From Streptococcus sanguinis SK1 = NCTC 7863 (GTDB lineage: Bacteria > Bacillota > Bacilli > Lactobacillales > Streptococcaceae), in NCBI RefSeq assembly GCF_000194945.1, contig NZ_GL878507.1, positions 248,001 through 312,000 on the forward strand: DNA of 64,000 bases, in the 5' to 3' direction. Below the pieces are notes generated by a model. It was not told where the DNA came from, searched no databases, and saw only the letters and a list, made by a program, of their open reading frames with translations. Position 1 is the stretch's first letter, and each line of letters begins with the position of its first letter. This document shows, piece by piece, positions 15,770 through 58,082 of this stretch. A program made the translations under genes and the position numbers.

Positions 15770-15778
15770 TACAAAGAG

Positions 15779-15804
15779 AAAATCGGAATTGTTCCGGTTT
15801 TTTC
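15779..15804 (+). terminator. ppc terminator
   Basis: AAAATCGGAA pairs with TTCCGGTTTT around a 3-base loop and continues into Ts, 10 bases after the stop codon. Confidence 0.85.
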
Positions 15805-15810
15805 TATTTT

Positions 15811-15837
15811 TGTAACCAAAGGGCTACTTAATTCGTT
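15811..15837 (+). promoter_or_regulatory. ECF-sigma-type promoter (possible autoregulation)
   Basis: TGTAAC (15811-15816), 17-base spacer, CGTT (15834-15837). This resembles promoters used by Bacillus ECF sigma factors (TGAAAC or TGTAAC with CGTC/CGTA/CGAC). It directly precedes an ECF-like sigma gene, as in autoregulated ECF operons. An overlapping TATACT (15837-15842) could instead serve the housekeeping sigma factor. Confidence 0.45.
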
Positions 15838-15863
15838 ATACTAGTGAAGGAGGGGGTGAGCTT

Positions 15864-16361
15864 ATCAAACTAGATGAATATGAAACAATCTTGATAGGCT
15901 TTGCTCGCGAGATTGTCTCCTATCTGCAGAAGTCAGGGGCTTCTAAAGTGGAAGCAGAAGATGTAGTTCAGGACGTTTTTGTCAAGATGTTGGAAACAGA
16001 AGTTATTATTCCGGCGGAAAAGATGCGAGCTTGGATGTATCGAGTTTCCATCCGGCGCTATATCGACAGATATAGGAGAGATAAGCATTATTTGGAGATT
16101 TTGCGAAAAGAATTTTTTGGAAAAGATCTTGTCAATCCCTTTGAAAATGAAGATTATGAGCTGCTAAGAAGTATGATAGAAGCTCTGCCGCTCAAGGAAG
16201 CCACGCTTTTAGAACTCTATTATTTTCAAGATTTCACGGTCAAGGAGATTGCCCAAATTATGTCTTACTCAGTGAGCAAGGTCAAGATTCAGCTGATGCG
16301 CAGTCGTGCTAAACTCCGAAAGGAGCTGGAAAAGAAAGGATATCGAAATGGAAACATTTAA
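15864..16361 (+). CDS. ECF-like sigma-70 family factor, start codon uncertain
   Basis: About 165 aa. Region 2 (EAEDVVQDVFVKMLE with the RAWMYRVSIRRYIDRYRR helix) and region 4 (LPLKEATLLELYYFQDF then the helix-turn-helix VKEIAQIMSYSVSKVKIQ) are clear, with no regions 1 or 3, as in ECF sigma factors. Coding continues upstream of the first conventional in-frame start (TTG 15891, no ribosome site). A strong AAGGAGGGGG ends near 15856, but the only codons at proper distance in frame are CTT 15861 and ATC 15864, so I mark ATC as the tentative start. The next gene overlaps by 14 bases and encodes the likely anti-sigma factor. Target genes are unknown. Confidence 0.75.
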   Translation: MKLDEYETILIGFAREIVSYLQKSGASKVEAEDVVQDVFVKMLETEVIIPAEKMRAWMYRVSIRRYIDRYRRDKHYLEILRKEFFGKDLVNPFENEDYELLRSMIEALPLKEATLLELYYFQDFTVKEIAQIMSYSVSKVKIQLMRSRAKLRKELEKKGYRNGNI

Positions 16362-17346
16362 AATTATTGCAAAGAAAAGTAGGAGAAAGAGACTCTGGAA
16401 GACAGTCGTCATTAGTTCCTTTGTATCTTTAGTTCTCTTAGGTCTTCTAGGAAAGGGGCTGGCAGAATTAGCCTCTGGTAACGGACGAGACTTGCAGAAA
16501 CAGTATGAAGTTATGTCCGAAATCGCCTATCCTAATGTTGACTATGACAGTCTATACTACAATCCGACCTCTTATCTTTCGGGAACATTACGTTCTGATC
16601 GTTTTAAAGACCTTGATGGAGTGATGGTGGATTATCCAGCCTATGAGGGGAACTATTCACTAACAGGTTCTTATAAAAATCCGACGTCAGAGGCGACTTA
16701 TTCCTCTACCTCAGGGACCTATACGCGAGAGCTTCGTCAGAAATATCCGGTCTTTTACAATGTCAATGCCAAACAGACGAAGTCTTCAGATCCAGCACCT
16801 CAGGAACTTGTATCTGTCAAAGAAATGCCGAATCAATTGGTAGAAATAGCTCTGACTTTTGATAAACCTTACACTTATAAGGAAATCCAGCAGATGATAC
16901 CGAGCAACCTCAAGATTAACTGGTACTGGATTGGCAGTCAGTCAGAAGATGGTGAAAATGGTATGGCATTGCGCACCGATCCTCAGACGACTTATGGAGC
17001 TAATAGTACGCTGCTTAATCCCTATCCGTCGGACGGCAAAAAAGAGAGCGAAGAGGCTAAGCAAGAGCAACAGACTTTCTTAGACTATTTGAAAAAGGCC
17101 GATAAAAACCTTTTCCCAACTGTCAACAAGTACAACATGTACAATGATGTTGAGTCCTATCTCAAGAAATTTGGTCGGTTAGATATTCGCGAGGAAAAGA
17201 ATCGAGATCAATTGACGTTTTCAGGTGTCATCCTTACTGGAAAATCCGAAAATTTCGCCCAACTAGAAGGTAAAGAATGGAACCATGCTTCTAGTATTGG
17301 AGCCTCTATTCAAAATCAACCTTACTACAAATTAGACAAGGAATAA
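16348..17346 (+). CDS. Membrane anti-sigma factor-like protein
   Basis: A 332-aa protein with a basic N-terminus (KKSRRKRLWKT), one membrane helix at about residues 19-40 and a large extracytoplasmic domain. The layout matches sigma-factor regulators with N- and C-terminal Sigma_reg domains; the region LVEIALTFDKPYTYKEIQQMI near 160-185 fits the C-terminal domain as I recall it. ATG 16348 has AAAGGA upstream and overlaps the sigma gene by 14 bases, implying coupled synthesis. It would hold the sigma factor at the membrane until an envelope signal releases it. The cytosolic portion is short (under 20 residues), which is less than in classical anti-sigma domains. Confidence 0.72.
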   Translation: METFKIIAKKSRRKRLWKTVVISSFVSLVLLGLLGKGLAELASGNGRDLQKQYEVMSEIAYPNVDYDSLYYNPTSYLSGTLRSDRFKDLDGVMVDYPAYEGNYSLTGSYKNPTSEATYSSTSGTYTRELRQKYPVFYNVNAKQTKSSDPAPQELVSVKEMPNQLVEIALTFDKPYTYKEIQQMIPSNLKINWYWIGSQSEDGENGMALRTDPQTTYGANSTLLNPYPSDGKKESEEAKQEQQTFLDYLKKADKNLFPTVNKYNMYNDVESYLKKFGRLDIREEKNRDQLTFSGVILTGKSENFAQLEGKEWNHASSIGASIQNQPYYKLDKE

Positions 17347-39296: not shown

Positions 39297-39818
39297 ATAG
39301 CAAAACAAGACTTATTCATCAATGATGAAATTCGTGTGCGTGAAGTTCGCTTGATCGGTCTTGACGGCGAACAATTAGGTATTAAACCGCTGAGCGAAGC
39401 GCAGTCTCTTGCGGATGAAGCAAATGTCGATTTGGTCCTGATTCAGCCACAAGCTAAACCACCTGTTGCAAAAATTATGGACTACGGTAAGTTCAAATTT
39501 GAGTACCAGAAAAAACAAAAAGAACAACGCAAGAAACAAAGTGTTGTTACTGTGAAAGAAGTCCGTCTCAGTCCAACCATTGATAAGGGAGACTTTGATA
39601 CTAAACTTCGCAACGCACGCAAGTTCCTTGAAAAAGGAAATAAAATAAAGGTATCGATCCGCTTCAAAGGTCGGATGATTACCCACAAAGAAATCGGGGC
39701 TAAAGTTTTAGCAGATTTTGCTGAAGCGACTCAAGATGTTGCTATCATTGAGCAAAAGCCTAAGATGGATGGACGTCAGATGTTCATGCAGATGGCGCCA
39801 ATTCCTGACAAAAAATAG
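39297..39818 (+). CDS. infC: Translation initiation factor IF-3, likely AUA start
   Basis: A 173-aa IF-3 with the N-domain ([15 protein letters not shown]), the central [17 protein letters not shown] linker helix and C-domain [10 protein letters not shown] and [17 protein letters not shown]. It prevents premature subunit joining and checks start codons. I place the start at ATA 39297, six bases after the Shine-Dalgarno AGAGGTG. The in-frame GTG 39288 overlaps that site and would not be usable with it. The resulting N-terminus (M)AKQDLFIND aligns with Bacillus IF-3, which starts from AUU. Rare starts let IF-3 repress itself. Confidence 0.9.
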
Positions 39819-50607: not shown

Positions 50608-50637
50608 AAAGATAGTCTATCATATTTCTAGGATTTA

Positions 50638-50646
50638 TGCTATACT
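50638..50646 (+). promoter_or_regulatory. queT promoter
   Basis: TG-C-TATACT extended -10; predicted start near 50651-50653, where the leader hairpin begins. Confidence 0.6.
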
Positions 50647-50650
50647 AGTT

Positions 50651-50707
50651 GGGTTGCCAAATCTGTGGGGAATCAACTAATGATGCTCCACTCATGTGAC
50701 GCAACCC
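50651..50707 (+). other. Upstream leader hairpin adjoining the preQ1-II riboswitch
   Basis: GGGTTGC (50651-50657) pairs with GCAACCC (50701-50707), enclosing about 43 bases with an inner GTGG/CCAC pair. It begins at the predicted transcription start and ends where the riboswitch begins. Confidence 0.55.
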
Positions 50708-50765
50708 TTGGCGCTTAGCTTCTTTCGCCAAGCATATTACACGCGGTAAAGCCGCTAAAGGAGAA
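50706..50765 (+). promoter_or_regulatory. preQ1-II riboswitch (COG4708 type)
   Basis: CTTGGCG and CGCCAAG form the first stem with the CTTAGCTTCTTT loop, followed by CATATTACACGCGG and the CGCGG...CCGC hairpin, ending in AAAGGAG, the queT ribosome site. The order and conserved bases match the class described from streptococci. preQ1 binding should sequester the ribosome site and lower transporter synthesis. Confidence 0.93.
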
Positions 50766-50768
50766 AAT

Positions 50769-51284
50769 ATGAAACAAGAAAAACTGAGAGTTCGTGATTT
50801 GGCTCAGATTGCCATTGTTGCTGCTATTTATGTAGCTCTTACGATTACGCCCCCTTTAAATGCGATTAGCTTTGGTGCTTACCAGTTCAGAATTTCTGAA
50901 ATGATGAACTTTATGGCTTTTTATAATCGGAAATATATCATGGGAGTGACCATTGGCTGTATGATTGCCAATCTCTATAGTTTTGGAATCGTTGATGTCT
51001 TTGTTGGCGGTGGGTCCACTTTAGTCTTCCTGTCACTGGGTGTCTATTTTTTCAGTCGCTATAAGAATCAATATCTTATTAAAGGCTTGATTCGTTTGGA
51101 TCATTTCTATTTTGCAGTTTTCTTTTCTATCTCAATGGTGACCATTGCTGCAGAATTACACTTCTTGCAAGGCTATCCATTCTTCCTGACTTGGTTTACA
51201 ACGGCCATTGGAGAATTTGCTTCTTTGATTGCTGGAGCTATCATTATTAACCAGATTGCAAAAAGTATTGATTTGACAAAATAA
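50769..51284 (+). CDS. queT: QueT family queuosine-precursor transporter
   Basis: A 171-aa ECF-transporter substrate-binding (S) component with five or six helices and RVRDLAQIAIVAAIYVALT near the N-terminus; FGAYQFRISEMMNFMAFYN is the characteristic family block near residues 39-57. It imports queuine or preQ1 using the shared EcfAAT module encoded elsewhere. The preQ1-II switch immediately upstream strongly supports this substrate. Confidence 0.93.
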   Translation: MKQEKLRVRDLAQIAIVAAIYVALTITPPLNAISFGAYQFRISEMMNFMAFYNRKYIMGVTIGCMIANLYSFGIVDVFVGGGSTLVFLSLGVYFFSRYKNQYLIKGLIRLDHFYFAVFFSISMVTIAAELHFLQGYPFFLTWFTTAIGEFASLIAGAIIINQIAKSIDLTK

Positions 51285-56649: not shown

Positions 56650-58082
56650 GGCTCTTTGTCAACTGTAGTGGGTTGCTAAAAAGTCATATCCTGGAGAGGA
56701 CTAAATCAGTCCTCTCCTTTTTGATATTCAAAGCGATGAGGATTCTAGTTTTAAAATTGTCAAAGTTCCGAAATCCGAAAGCATTGCGCTTGATGACCTT
56801 GATGAGGTTGTTAGCAGCTTCTAGTTTTGCATTGAGTAGGGCAGTTCCAGCGCGTTCAAGATCTTGTCCTTATCTTTCAAAAAGGTCTTAAAAACAGTTT
56901 GAAAGATAGGATTTACACAAGAGAGGGTATCTTCAATGAGTCCAAAGAAATGCCCAGCCTGTTTCTCTTGAAAATGAAAAAGCAGGAGTTGGTAGAGTTT
57001 ATAGTGTTCTTGGAGTTCTTGGGAGCAATAGAGAATCTTTTCAAGAATCTCTTTATTGGTTAAGTGCAACCGAAAAGTTGGATGATAAAAGCGTTTATGG
57101 CTTAGTTTTCGACTATCCTGTTGAATGAGTTTCCAGTAGCGTTTGAGTGCCTTATATTCGTGCGATTTTCGATCAAACTGATTCATGATTTGGATACGAA
57201 GGCAGTTCATAGCCCGGCTGAGATGTTGTACAATGTGAAAACGATCCAGAACGATTTTAGCGTTTGGGAATAGTTTTCTGGCAATATCGTAGTAGGGACT
57301 AAACATGTCCATGGTAATGATTTTCACGCTATTTCGGACCTGTCTGGAATAGCGCAGGAAGTGATTGCGAATCGTTGCTTGAGTCCGCCCATCTTAAGAT
57401 AGCTATAATCTTTCTGGAATCGAAATCCTGTGCAATGAAGTTCATCTCTATCTGCCGATTGAAACAGTCACTTCCCTGACTGTTTCCACATCCCAGCTCA
57501 TGTGTTCTGGAAGGTAGTTGAGGTTTGCCTTGAACTTGAATTCTTTCAATTTACGAATGACGGTGGAAGTAGAGACAGCTAAGCTTTCAGCGAAGGCTGT
57601 CATAGGGACTTTCTCGATTAGTTTTTGAGGGATTTTCTGCTTGACGATGGTTGCGATTTGGTGATTCTTCTTGACTAAGGAAGTCTCTGCGACAGCCATT
57701 TTCCCACAGACTTTACAGCGAAAACGTCGTTTCTTTAAGCGAATCAGCGTTTTGTATCCCGCACACTCTAGATAAGGGATTTTGGATTCTTTCTGGAAGT
57801 CATATTTAGCCATTTGTCCTTGACAGTGGGAGCATTTAGGAGCAGGATAATCTAGCTTAGCGATGATTTCTTTATGTGTAACAGCATCTAGAACATCCAA
57901 GATAGTGATGTTTTGGTCTTTTATTCCCAGTAAGTTTGTGATAAAATTGAACTGTTCCATAAGAGTCTTTCTAATGATAGTTTCATCGCTTTTCATTATA
58001 GGACTTATGGGACTTTTTTTCTACAACAAATAGGCTCCATCATTCCTACAGCGGTTTTACCCACTACAGAAATTATAGAGCC
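56650..58082 (-). mobile_element. ISL3-family insertion sequence (IS1167/IS1193-like), inactive
   Basis: A 1433-bp element with imperfect terminal inverted repeats (GGCTCTTTGTCAACTGTAGT at 56650 and, on the minus strand from 58082, GGCTCTATAATTTCTGTAGT), flanked by the 8-bp direct repeat TGAAAAGC. Length, ends and transposase similarity all fit ISL3. The transposase is broken by frameshifts, so it cannot move by itself. It sits between pulA and ltaS at the very edge of their shared terminator, leaving that hairpin intact on the right side. Confidence 0.92.
56684..57996 (-). pseudogene. ISL3-family transposase, frameshifted
   Basis: The coding remnant reads on the minus strand. The first piece (57996 to 57448) has a zinc-ribbon (CSHCQG, then CKVCGK) and helix-turn-helix region (VPMTAFAESLAVSTSTVIRKL). 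The frame then breaks: sequence resembling FIAQDFDSRKI continues in a second frame and DGRTQATIRNHF in a third before the DDE domain resumes (57327 to 56821, IITMDMFSPYYDIARKLFPNAKIVLDRFH as blocks). A last shift near 56870 precedes LERAGTALLNAKLEAANNLI, ending at TGA 56684-56686. At least three frameshifts make it a pseudogene. Start is ATG 57996 or, by comparison with relatives, ATG 57960. Confidence 0.9.

Follow-up and report, generated by a model that had tools for sequence, protein, structure and literature searches.

A gene pair within a 64,000-nucleotide (nt) stretch of the 2.28 Mb genome of Streptococcus sanguinis SK1 (G000:C1:248001-312000; hereafter the window) likely represents an autoregulated system of streptococci, which comprises an extracytoplasmic function (ECF) sigma factor and a membrane anti-sigma partner, and in which the sigma factor would be translated from a near-cognate AUH codon (AUC, AUU or AUA), namely AUC in this organism. 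What is newly found by comparison of the loci is a sigma gene without a usable ATG, GTG or TTG start. A preliminary description of this DNA had recognized a two-region ECF-like sigma factor, its 14-base overlap with the gene for a single-pass membrane protein and a TGTAAC-N17-CGTT element directly upstream, and each of these is borne out by the results given below; it had missed the start codon, which is the real surprise of the locus. The gene order is ftsW, ppc, sigma, partner and tuf (ftsW, ppc and tuf being named by what their sequences resemble), and the sigma gene and its partner share bases 16348-16361. The features discussed here, in window positions, are:

15864-15866, plus strand: start codon of the sigma gene, ATC, non-canonical; AUH in 96/109 distinct Streptococcus loci.
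15864-16361, plus strand: ECF sigma factor gene, 165 amino acids (aa), with regions 2 and 4.
15847-15853, plus strand: Shine-Dalgarno (SD) sequence of the sigma gene, AAGGAGG, which follows CGTT by about 10 nt and is 10 nt from codon 1.
15811-15837, plus strand: ECF-type promoter, with the -35 box TGTAAC at 15811-15816, a spacer of 17 and the -10 box CGTT at 15834-15837; the element is found in 111/115 distinct loci.
15844-15846, plus strand: probable transcription start, placed by the usual ECF geometry (about 10-12 nt past the first base of CGTT).
16348-17346, plus strand: putative anti-sigma gene, 332 aa, ATG start, with Sigma_reg_N and Sigma_reg_C domains.
16335-16340, plus strand: SD-like AAAGGA of the partner gene, lying within the sigma gene.
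16402-16470, plus strand: single transmembrane helix of the partner, with approximate limits; only 18 residues precede it.
15854-15906, plus strand: RNA hairpin in which the stretch after the SD sequence and the ATC codon are paired with approximately codons 10-15.
15775-15805, plus strand: terminator-like hairpin after ppc and just 5' of the promoter, by pattern match only.
39297-39818, plus strand: infC, used as a comparator, with the start codon ATA, behind the L20 leader.

In the window, the sigma frame from the upstream stop to codon 10 shows no in-frame ATG, GTG or TTG before the TTG at 15891, which is codon 10 of the conserved sigma protein and the first canonical codon of the gene. We aligned 115 distinct sigma loci, 109 from Streptococcus and six from elsewhere, on the first conserved residue. 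Across the 109 Streptococcus loci, codon 1 is ATC in 55, ATT in 38, ATA in 3, ATG in 7, GTG in 4, CTG in 1 and another triplet in 1, this last locus having an ATG at codon -1. The outgroup of six loci shows GTG (4), ATG (1) and ACG (1). Related genes have their ATG or GTG at exactly the codon-1 position. The initial listing comprised 121 rows, but in six of them a gene already present is read again from an overlapping locus; these repeats remain in the promoter alignment, the 102-row codon alignment, the weight matrix, the strict-pattern spacing test and the RNA-folding set. The remnants L019 and L024, eight truncated readings and 22 exact repeats were omitted from the start-codon rows, and three broken genes (L018, L054 and L153) are among the 96 AUH rows.

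A canonical codon is absent from positions -3 to +4 in 56 of the 96 AUH loci, including that of the window, and in 41 of the 96 none is found all the way from the upstream in-frame stop through codon 5. In-frame stops cluster six to eight codons upstream of codon 1 (28, 50 and 36 of 102 rows at -8, -7 and -6, respectively). Residue conservation begins at codon 1 (L3 90%, D4 94%, Y6 98% and E7 100% over 102 rows; codon 1 itself is 100% Ile in this alignment by row selection), and little of it is seen further 5' outside the SD sequence. From codon 1 on, base changes fall mostly on third positions, and for Leu also on first positions. The SD sequence lies 7-8 nt before codon 1 in 77/96 AUH loci, as against 6/16 loci with canonical starts, five of which are from the outgroup (Fisher p=0.0009, relatedness ignored). 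Codon 1 also differs from the internal Ile codons of the same genes, with ATC/ATT/ATA counts of 55/38/3 as compared to 299/713/148 (p=1.5e-10, relatedness ignored), i.e. it prefers ATC (55/96 versus 299/1160). The AUH codon holds its position and has long been retained in these genes, and it would serve as their initiation codon. Taken across the genus, the comparison strongly supports an AUH start on the sigma gene, beside a partner with an ATG start.

One might hold that translation begins at TTG 15891, yielding a sigma factor of 156 residues and leaving the AUH codon merely an untranslated triplet. TTG is a legal start and a mechanical listing of open reading frames begins there; moreover, among the strictest 41 AUH loci the next canonical codon is number 8, 10 or 11 in 34. 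We consider such a downstream start very improbable: by eye no SD sequence precedes the TTG, codons 3, 4, 6 and 7 are conserved as protein, and the cut would fall in the first helix of region 2, which a structure model (mean predicted local distance difference test score, pLDDT, of 78) places at residues 3-23. Furthermore, the remaining 7 of the 41 loci offer no canonical codon until number 21, 38, 39, 40 or 116.

The RNA around the start codon was also folded. The hairpin at 15854-15906 stands out in the window and in the sister locus L031 (z approximately -2.5 to -3.2), and a conserved RNA structure at the start codon was rejected, with a mean z of 0.10 over 121 rows and only 3 rows below -2. 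The mean unpaired probability of the start codon is 0.32 in AUH rows versus 0.62 in rows with ATG or GTG. As a separate observation, the Lactococcus homologue L072 has ACG and the Streptococcus locus L053 has CTG at codon 1, two more near-cognate triplets, both with an in-frame GTG three codons upstream.

The comparator gene infC offers a familiar counterpart, as an AUH start on infC is the known mark of initiation limited by the initiation factor IF3. In the window infC starts with ATA (39297-39299) behind GAGGTG, and ATA is likewise the start in 26/26 loci of relatives in which it could be read (58 relatives with infC, 30 loci fetched, the motif search failing in 4). The two genes are alike in having an AUH start behind an SD sequence; they differ in that infC is the repressor's own gene, whereas the sigma gene would be its target.

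The history of codon 1 was traced on a tree of 109 sigma proteins (103 from Streptococcus and six from the outgroup), which was rooted without an independent species tree and has 26 of 106 inner branches unresolved. The Streptococcus rows comprise 91 with AUH, 10 with canonical codons and 2 others; outside the genus, codon 1 is GTG, ATG or ACG in all six rows. The AUH label needs 8 changes on this tree (7-9 over bootstraps) versus a mean of 17 after shuffling. The AUH codon thus appears to be ancient within Streptococcus and to have given way to canonical codons several times since.

The promoter element was sought as [TC]GT[AT]AC[CT]-N14-17-[CT]GTT and lies within 260 nt upstream of the sigma gene in 111/115 distinct loci, because of which we take it to be more than a chance match. 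Its spacers vary between species while both boxes are constant. This upholds the earlier suggestion of a self-type ECF promoter before the sigma/membrane pair, which by comparison of the loci is conserved across the genus. A strict version of the pattern, TGTAACC-N15/17-CGTTNTA, occurs in 91/104 sigma-positive versus 24/180 sigma-negative Streptococcus genomes, and most genomes with it have a single copy, at the sigma gene. Its 128 sites are made up of 91 at the sigma gene, 7 deletion scars, 1 remnant and 29 elsewhere. The 24 sigma-negative genomes with the pattern include 7 with the scar of a deleted copy, 1 with a sigma remnant (L024) and 16 others, whose 17 sites all lie within reading frames. 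The 5' untranslated region of the sigma mRNA would, by the usual ECF geometry, be about 20 nt long.

A TATACT box overlaps the ECF -10 by one base, and the evidence regarding it is mixed. In rows chosen by the motif, its TNTA equals CGTT in conservation (97-99% per base), whereas the A of the box differs in 36% of rows and the C in 76%. The distance of 21 nt from TTGTAA to TATACT is too far for a sigma-A promoter, and a scan for sigma-70-type sites listed none at TATACT; a weak sigma-A start may nonetheless exist there. Two further observations concern the layout of the leader. First, in the S. cristatus clade (L215; L003-L005 and L033-L038) the ECF promoter lies about 165-195 nt before codon 1, as opposed to about 30 elsewhere. 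Second, in L008 a short frame lies between the promoter and the sigma gene; an SD-like stretch of its own precedes it, and it may encode a leader peptide.

The sigma protein is recovered by the Pfam models Sigma70_r2 (8.1e-9) and Sigma70_r4_2 (7.2e-13), and no Pfam model detects a region 3 in it at E <= 1. With regions 2 and 4, a length of 165 aa and a score of 63.2 bits against the TIGR02937 sigma70-ECF model (cut-off 42.9), it belongs to the ECF class (group 4). The partner is recovered by Sigma_reg_N (3.5e-11) and Sigma_reg_C (2.4e-19), and with these domains, one transmembrane helix and a gene adjoining the sigma gene it has the makeup of the Sigma_reg_N/C anti-sigma proteins; its anti-sigma activity is putative. 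YhdL of Bacillus also carries Sigma_reg domains. Of the 110 loci where a partner was found, 108 have an ATG and an accompanying SD-like stretch in front of it, in a search that considered ATG, GTG and TTG, such that an AUH start there would have been undetectable; six of the 11 rows in which no partner was found are repeats. A structure model of the partner (mean pLDDT 90.6) has a long helix at residues 2-59, including the membrane span, followed by an outer part of mixed beta and alpha/beta structure. A Foldseek search with the fold of this outer domain gave nothing at E <= 0.001, the highest Z being 6.2 (residues 34-116), and a sequence search of solved structures returned nothing significant. 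A likeness to the N-terminal part of PBP5/PBP2a, presumably NTF2-like, was set aside as too weak to use (Z approximately 5).

The SigV/SigM-type envelope-stress circuit envisaged in the preliminary description stands in part: such a circuit with an envelope role is plausible on indirect grounds, and membership of either subfamily fails on the scores. Specifically, the sigma protein attains 83.6 bits against the SigM-subfamily model (TIGR02950; cut-off 147.95) and 63.8 bits against the NCBIfam SigV model (cut-off 190). The latter score, along with a similar gene order and promoter, might be invoked in favor of the partner being a lysozyme- or beta-lactam-sensing anti-sigma factor of the RsiV/RsiP kind, which would make this a SigV or SigP system. 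We hold that assignment to be highly unlikely, as the SigV cut-off is missed by the sigma protein and Pfam finds in the partner only Sigma_reg_N and Sigma_reg_C, rather than a domain of the DUF3298/DUF4163 type.

The potential targets of the sigma factor were approached by reading all 29 strict promoter copies that lie away from the sigma gene. In sigma-positive genomes, 8/12 such copies are intergenic and precede envelope genes, with the other 4 lying inside genes, versus 0/17 intergenic copies in sigma-negative genomes (Fisher p=0.0001, relatedness ignored). Altogether 21 of the 29 matches were rejected, 20 for lying inside frames of at least 150 codons (16 of these in sigma-negative genomes) and one (L207, sigma-negative) for lying in a shorter frame. 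Of the eight retained copies, those in G059, G214, G254 and G306 precede a PBP4-like D-Ala-D-Ala carboxypeptidase (Peptidase_S11). Those in G102, G177 and G023 stand before genes for an FtsX/MacB ABC transporter and a PASTA-domain protein, and the one in G178 before the gene of an LdcB/VanY-like carboxypeptidase that carries surface repeats. This placement before carboxypeptidase genes or the ABC/PASTA operon indirectly supports an envelope role. The family assignments come from one member per class. Weaker sites were sought with a weight matrix, for which sigma promoters have a median score of 28.5; of the larger number of places with such genes, 29 PBP4-like and 11 ABC loci had their upstream DNA read. 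For the PBP4-like gene, weaker sites appear in G133 and G010, and none in G081 or in G065, a sigma-negative carrier of a close homologue. None of 25 PBP4-like homologues with at most 69% identity to the G214 protein has a convincing upstream promoter (best scores 9.0 and 5.2), and therefore only the close clade counts. The ABC operon has a site in 3/8 sigma-positive versus 0/3 sigma-negative carriers, with a weak site in G179 (score 10.0) not being counted.

Several observations weigh against reading the pair as an autoregulated system with an AUH-initiated sigma factor. First, the candidate targets are patchy, as seen in the 3/8 carriers of the ABC operon, and the eight sites fall in only three gene classes. 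The genome-wide search for other copies that the preliminary description had proposed found none convincing in G000 beyond the self-promoter, and the regulon in S. sanguinis, the species of the window, is therefore unproven; some scans of this genome gave more matches to backward control patterns than to the promoter pattern, and the PBP4-like gene of G000 has no such promoter before it. Second, the tail preceding the membrane helix has only 15-26 residues in 107/110 partners. The usual ECF anti-sigma domains are longer than this, and consequently the binding to the sigma factor is not explained. The tail has a conserved F and a basic stretch, with the consensus F-E-x-x-A-K-K-x-K-R-K; it may be a minimal anchor for the sigma factor, or else the partner acts in another way. 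Third, the window's SD sequence lies 10 nt from the ATC, more than the usual 7-8, and 19/96 loci fall outside the latter range. Fourth, an in-frame ATG lies two codons upstream, approximately 2 nt from the SD sequence, in 17/96 AUH loci, and a GTG or ATG lies one codon upstream in 3/96, which makes the start ambiguous in these loci. Finally, ATG or GTG occupies codon 1 in 11/109 loci, implying that the weak codon is not indispensable.

The fourth of these points invites the proposal that an upstream ATG or GTG, at codons -1 to -3, is the start wherever it is present, with the AUH being an internal Ile codon in part of the genus. Such codons account for the 40/96 AUH loci outside the 56 with clear flanks: 25 have GTG at -3, 17 have ATG at -2 and 3 have a canonical codon at -1, these classes overlapping. 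That proposal seems to us improbable, given that these codons lie about 2 nt from the SD sequence or inside it, that related loci do not share them (the same place reads ATG AGT, ATA AGT or AAA AGC), and that the 56 loci, with the window among them, have nothing of the kind. The final observation in the list above bears on a different alternative, namely that this is an ordinary ECF/anti-sigma pair, whose AUH codon is a neutral or slightly harmful relic with no role in stoichiometry or in relation to IF3. The canonical codons in the 11 loci come from several branches that have retained the system, and the promoter and anti-sigma factor alone could provide regulation. Yet ATG is one base change away and AUH persists in 91/103 rows over deep branches, mostly with the SD sequence at the usual distance; the canonical-start loci, for their part, less often show the 7-8 nt spacing, as if weak initiation were being kept by other means. 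A mere relic is hence unlikely in our assessment, and we favor an AUH start with a functional role.

In terms of known systems, the closest and direct precedent for the mechanism is sigR of Streptomyces. This gene has a GTC start, IF3 represses its translation and the anti-sigma factor RsrA is in excess, as demonstrated experimentally; making the codon canonical abolishes this control (Feeney et al., 2017; PMC5472188). Both cases have an ECF sigma factor with a non-canonical start, a strong SD sequence (AGGAGGTG in sigR) and a co-transcribed anti-sigma gene, as far as the sequence indicates for the streptococcal pair. They differ in that RsrA is a zinc-containing redox anti-sigma factor while the streptococcal partner is a membrane Sigma_reg protein, in their phylum, in the codon itself (GTC versus streptococcal AUH), in the streptococcal case being known from sequence alone, and in rsrA having an additional promoter of its own (PMC5472188). 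In Listeria, another study reports six conserved genes with fixed non-canonical starts, among which infC and rnhC were confirmed experimentally (PMC13068326). The conserved non-canonical start behind an SD sequence places the streptococcal sigma gene in the same class as infC and sigR, insofar as comparison of the genes can establish this.

Other ECF systems provide parallels in organization. As is proposed for the streptococcal pair, the Bacillus sigM-yhdL-yhdK operon is an autoregulated ECF operon with a membrane anti-sigma factor, whose loss lets the sigma factor run away; it differs in having a third gene, the place of which is taken in the streptococcal locus by tuf, and in the SigM score noted above, and the accessible part of its description does not mention a start-codon feature (PMC6827917). 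In the sister genus Lactococcus, Llmg2447 is a putative ECF anti-sigma factor whose overexpression confers resistance to the lipid II-binding bacteriocin Lcn972 (PMC9964109). We liken it to the streptococcal partner by description only; homologues of the streptococcal sigma factor occur in Lactococcus sp. dk101 (L072 and L075), where, of the two sigma genes read, one has ACG and the other GTG at codon 1, rather than AUH. In S. dysgalactiae subsp. equisimilis, MGCS36044_01350/01352 is an ECF sigma/anti-sigma gene pair present in several streptococci and with higher transcript in vivo, which we again liken by description and not by sequence; its start codon, promoter and regulon are not described in the accessible portion of that paper (PMC12345147). 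Our literature search, which covered few subscription journals and parts of the sources, brought up no account of the codon at which a streptococcal ECF gene starts.

Putting these together, we posit the following mechanism. A low-level mRNA from the ECF promoter would carry both genes. The sigma gene has a strong SD sequence, and its AUC start would often be rejected by IF3; the overlapping anti-sigma gene, with an AUG and its own ribosome site, would yield more anti-sigma than sigma factor per mRNA. The membrane anti-sigma protein would hold the sigma factor until an envelope signal, by its action on the outer domain, releases it. The free sigma factor would then transcribe the operon that encodes it and, in certain species, genes for the cell wall, with the weak start damping the positive feedback. 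By analogy with infC and sigR, the genus-wide AUH start points to IF3-limited synthesis of the sigma factor, and the poor start codon is probably there so that less sigma factor than inhibitor is made.

The phyletic pattern shows the pair to be widespread and often lost. The usual account credits streptococci with a single main alternative sigma factor, ComX. More than a third of the Streptococcus genomes searched (104/284, a few of them with broken copies) match the sigma gene at E <= 1e-15. The named loci include those of S. sinensis, S. sanguinis, S. cristatus, S. intermedius, S. massiliensis and S. anginosus, and, more distantly, of Lactococcus sp. dk101. Losses of sigma and partner are frequent: seven S. 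sanguinis-like genomes (L208-L214) retain the promoter and a stub of the partner, approximately its last 10 codons, but have lost everything else of the two genes, and L018, L019, L024, L054 and L153 are remnants or broken sigma copies. Nine genomes have tandem sigma genes 1.6-1.7 kb apart; in six such pairs (L048/L132, L006/L140, L049/L141, L050/L142, L051/L150 and L052/L138) both genes have AUH. A search for carriage on plasmids gave 16 records with distant matches, none of them in Streptococcus. Elsewhere in the window, 50636-50771 and 57973-58082 match the preQ1-II riboswitch and Srn266 RNA, respectively, above the Rfam gathering scores.

Finally, the finding has both practical and biological implications. 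Calling of open reading frames limited to ATG, GTG and TTG starts the window's sigma gene at the wrong codon and could miss others, and will similarly misplace the infC start at 39297. The cell-wall carboxypeptidases and the ABC/PASTA operon furnish a concrete hypothesis for what the system controls. A second, unrelated non-canonical start on an ECF sigma factor would turn the sigR story into a rule for sigma/anti-sigma ratios. In its boldest form, to which we lend slightly less than even credence, the AUH start would be a translational governor kept genus-wide, having arisen independently of sigR, with the partner as a minimal anti-sigma factor gripping the sigma factor by its cytoplasmic tail of only about 20 residues. 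If this were true, a weak start on the sigma factor combined with a strong one on the anti-sigma factor would be a general design rule, and the envelope-stress output of streptococci would be coupled to initiation fidelity and the level of IF3.

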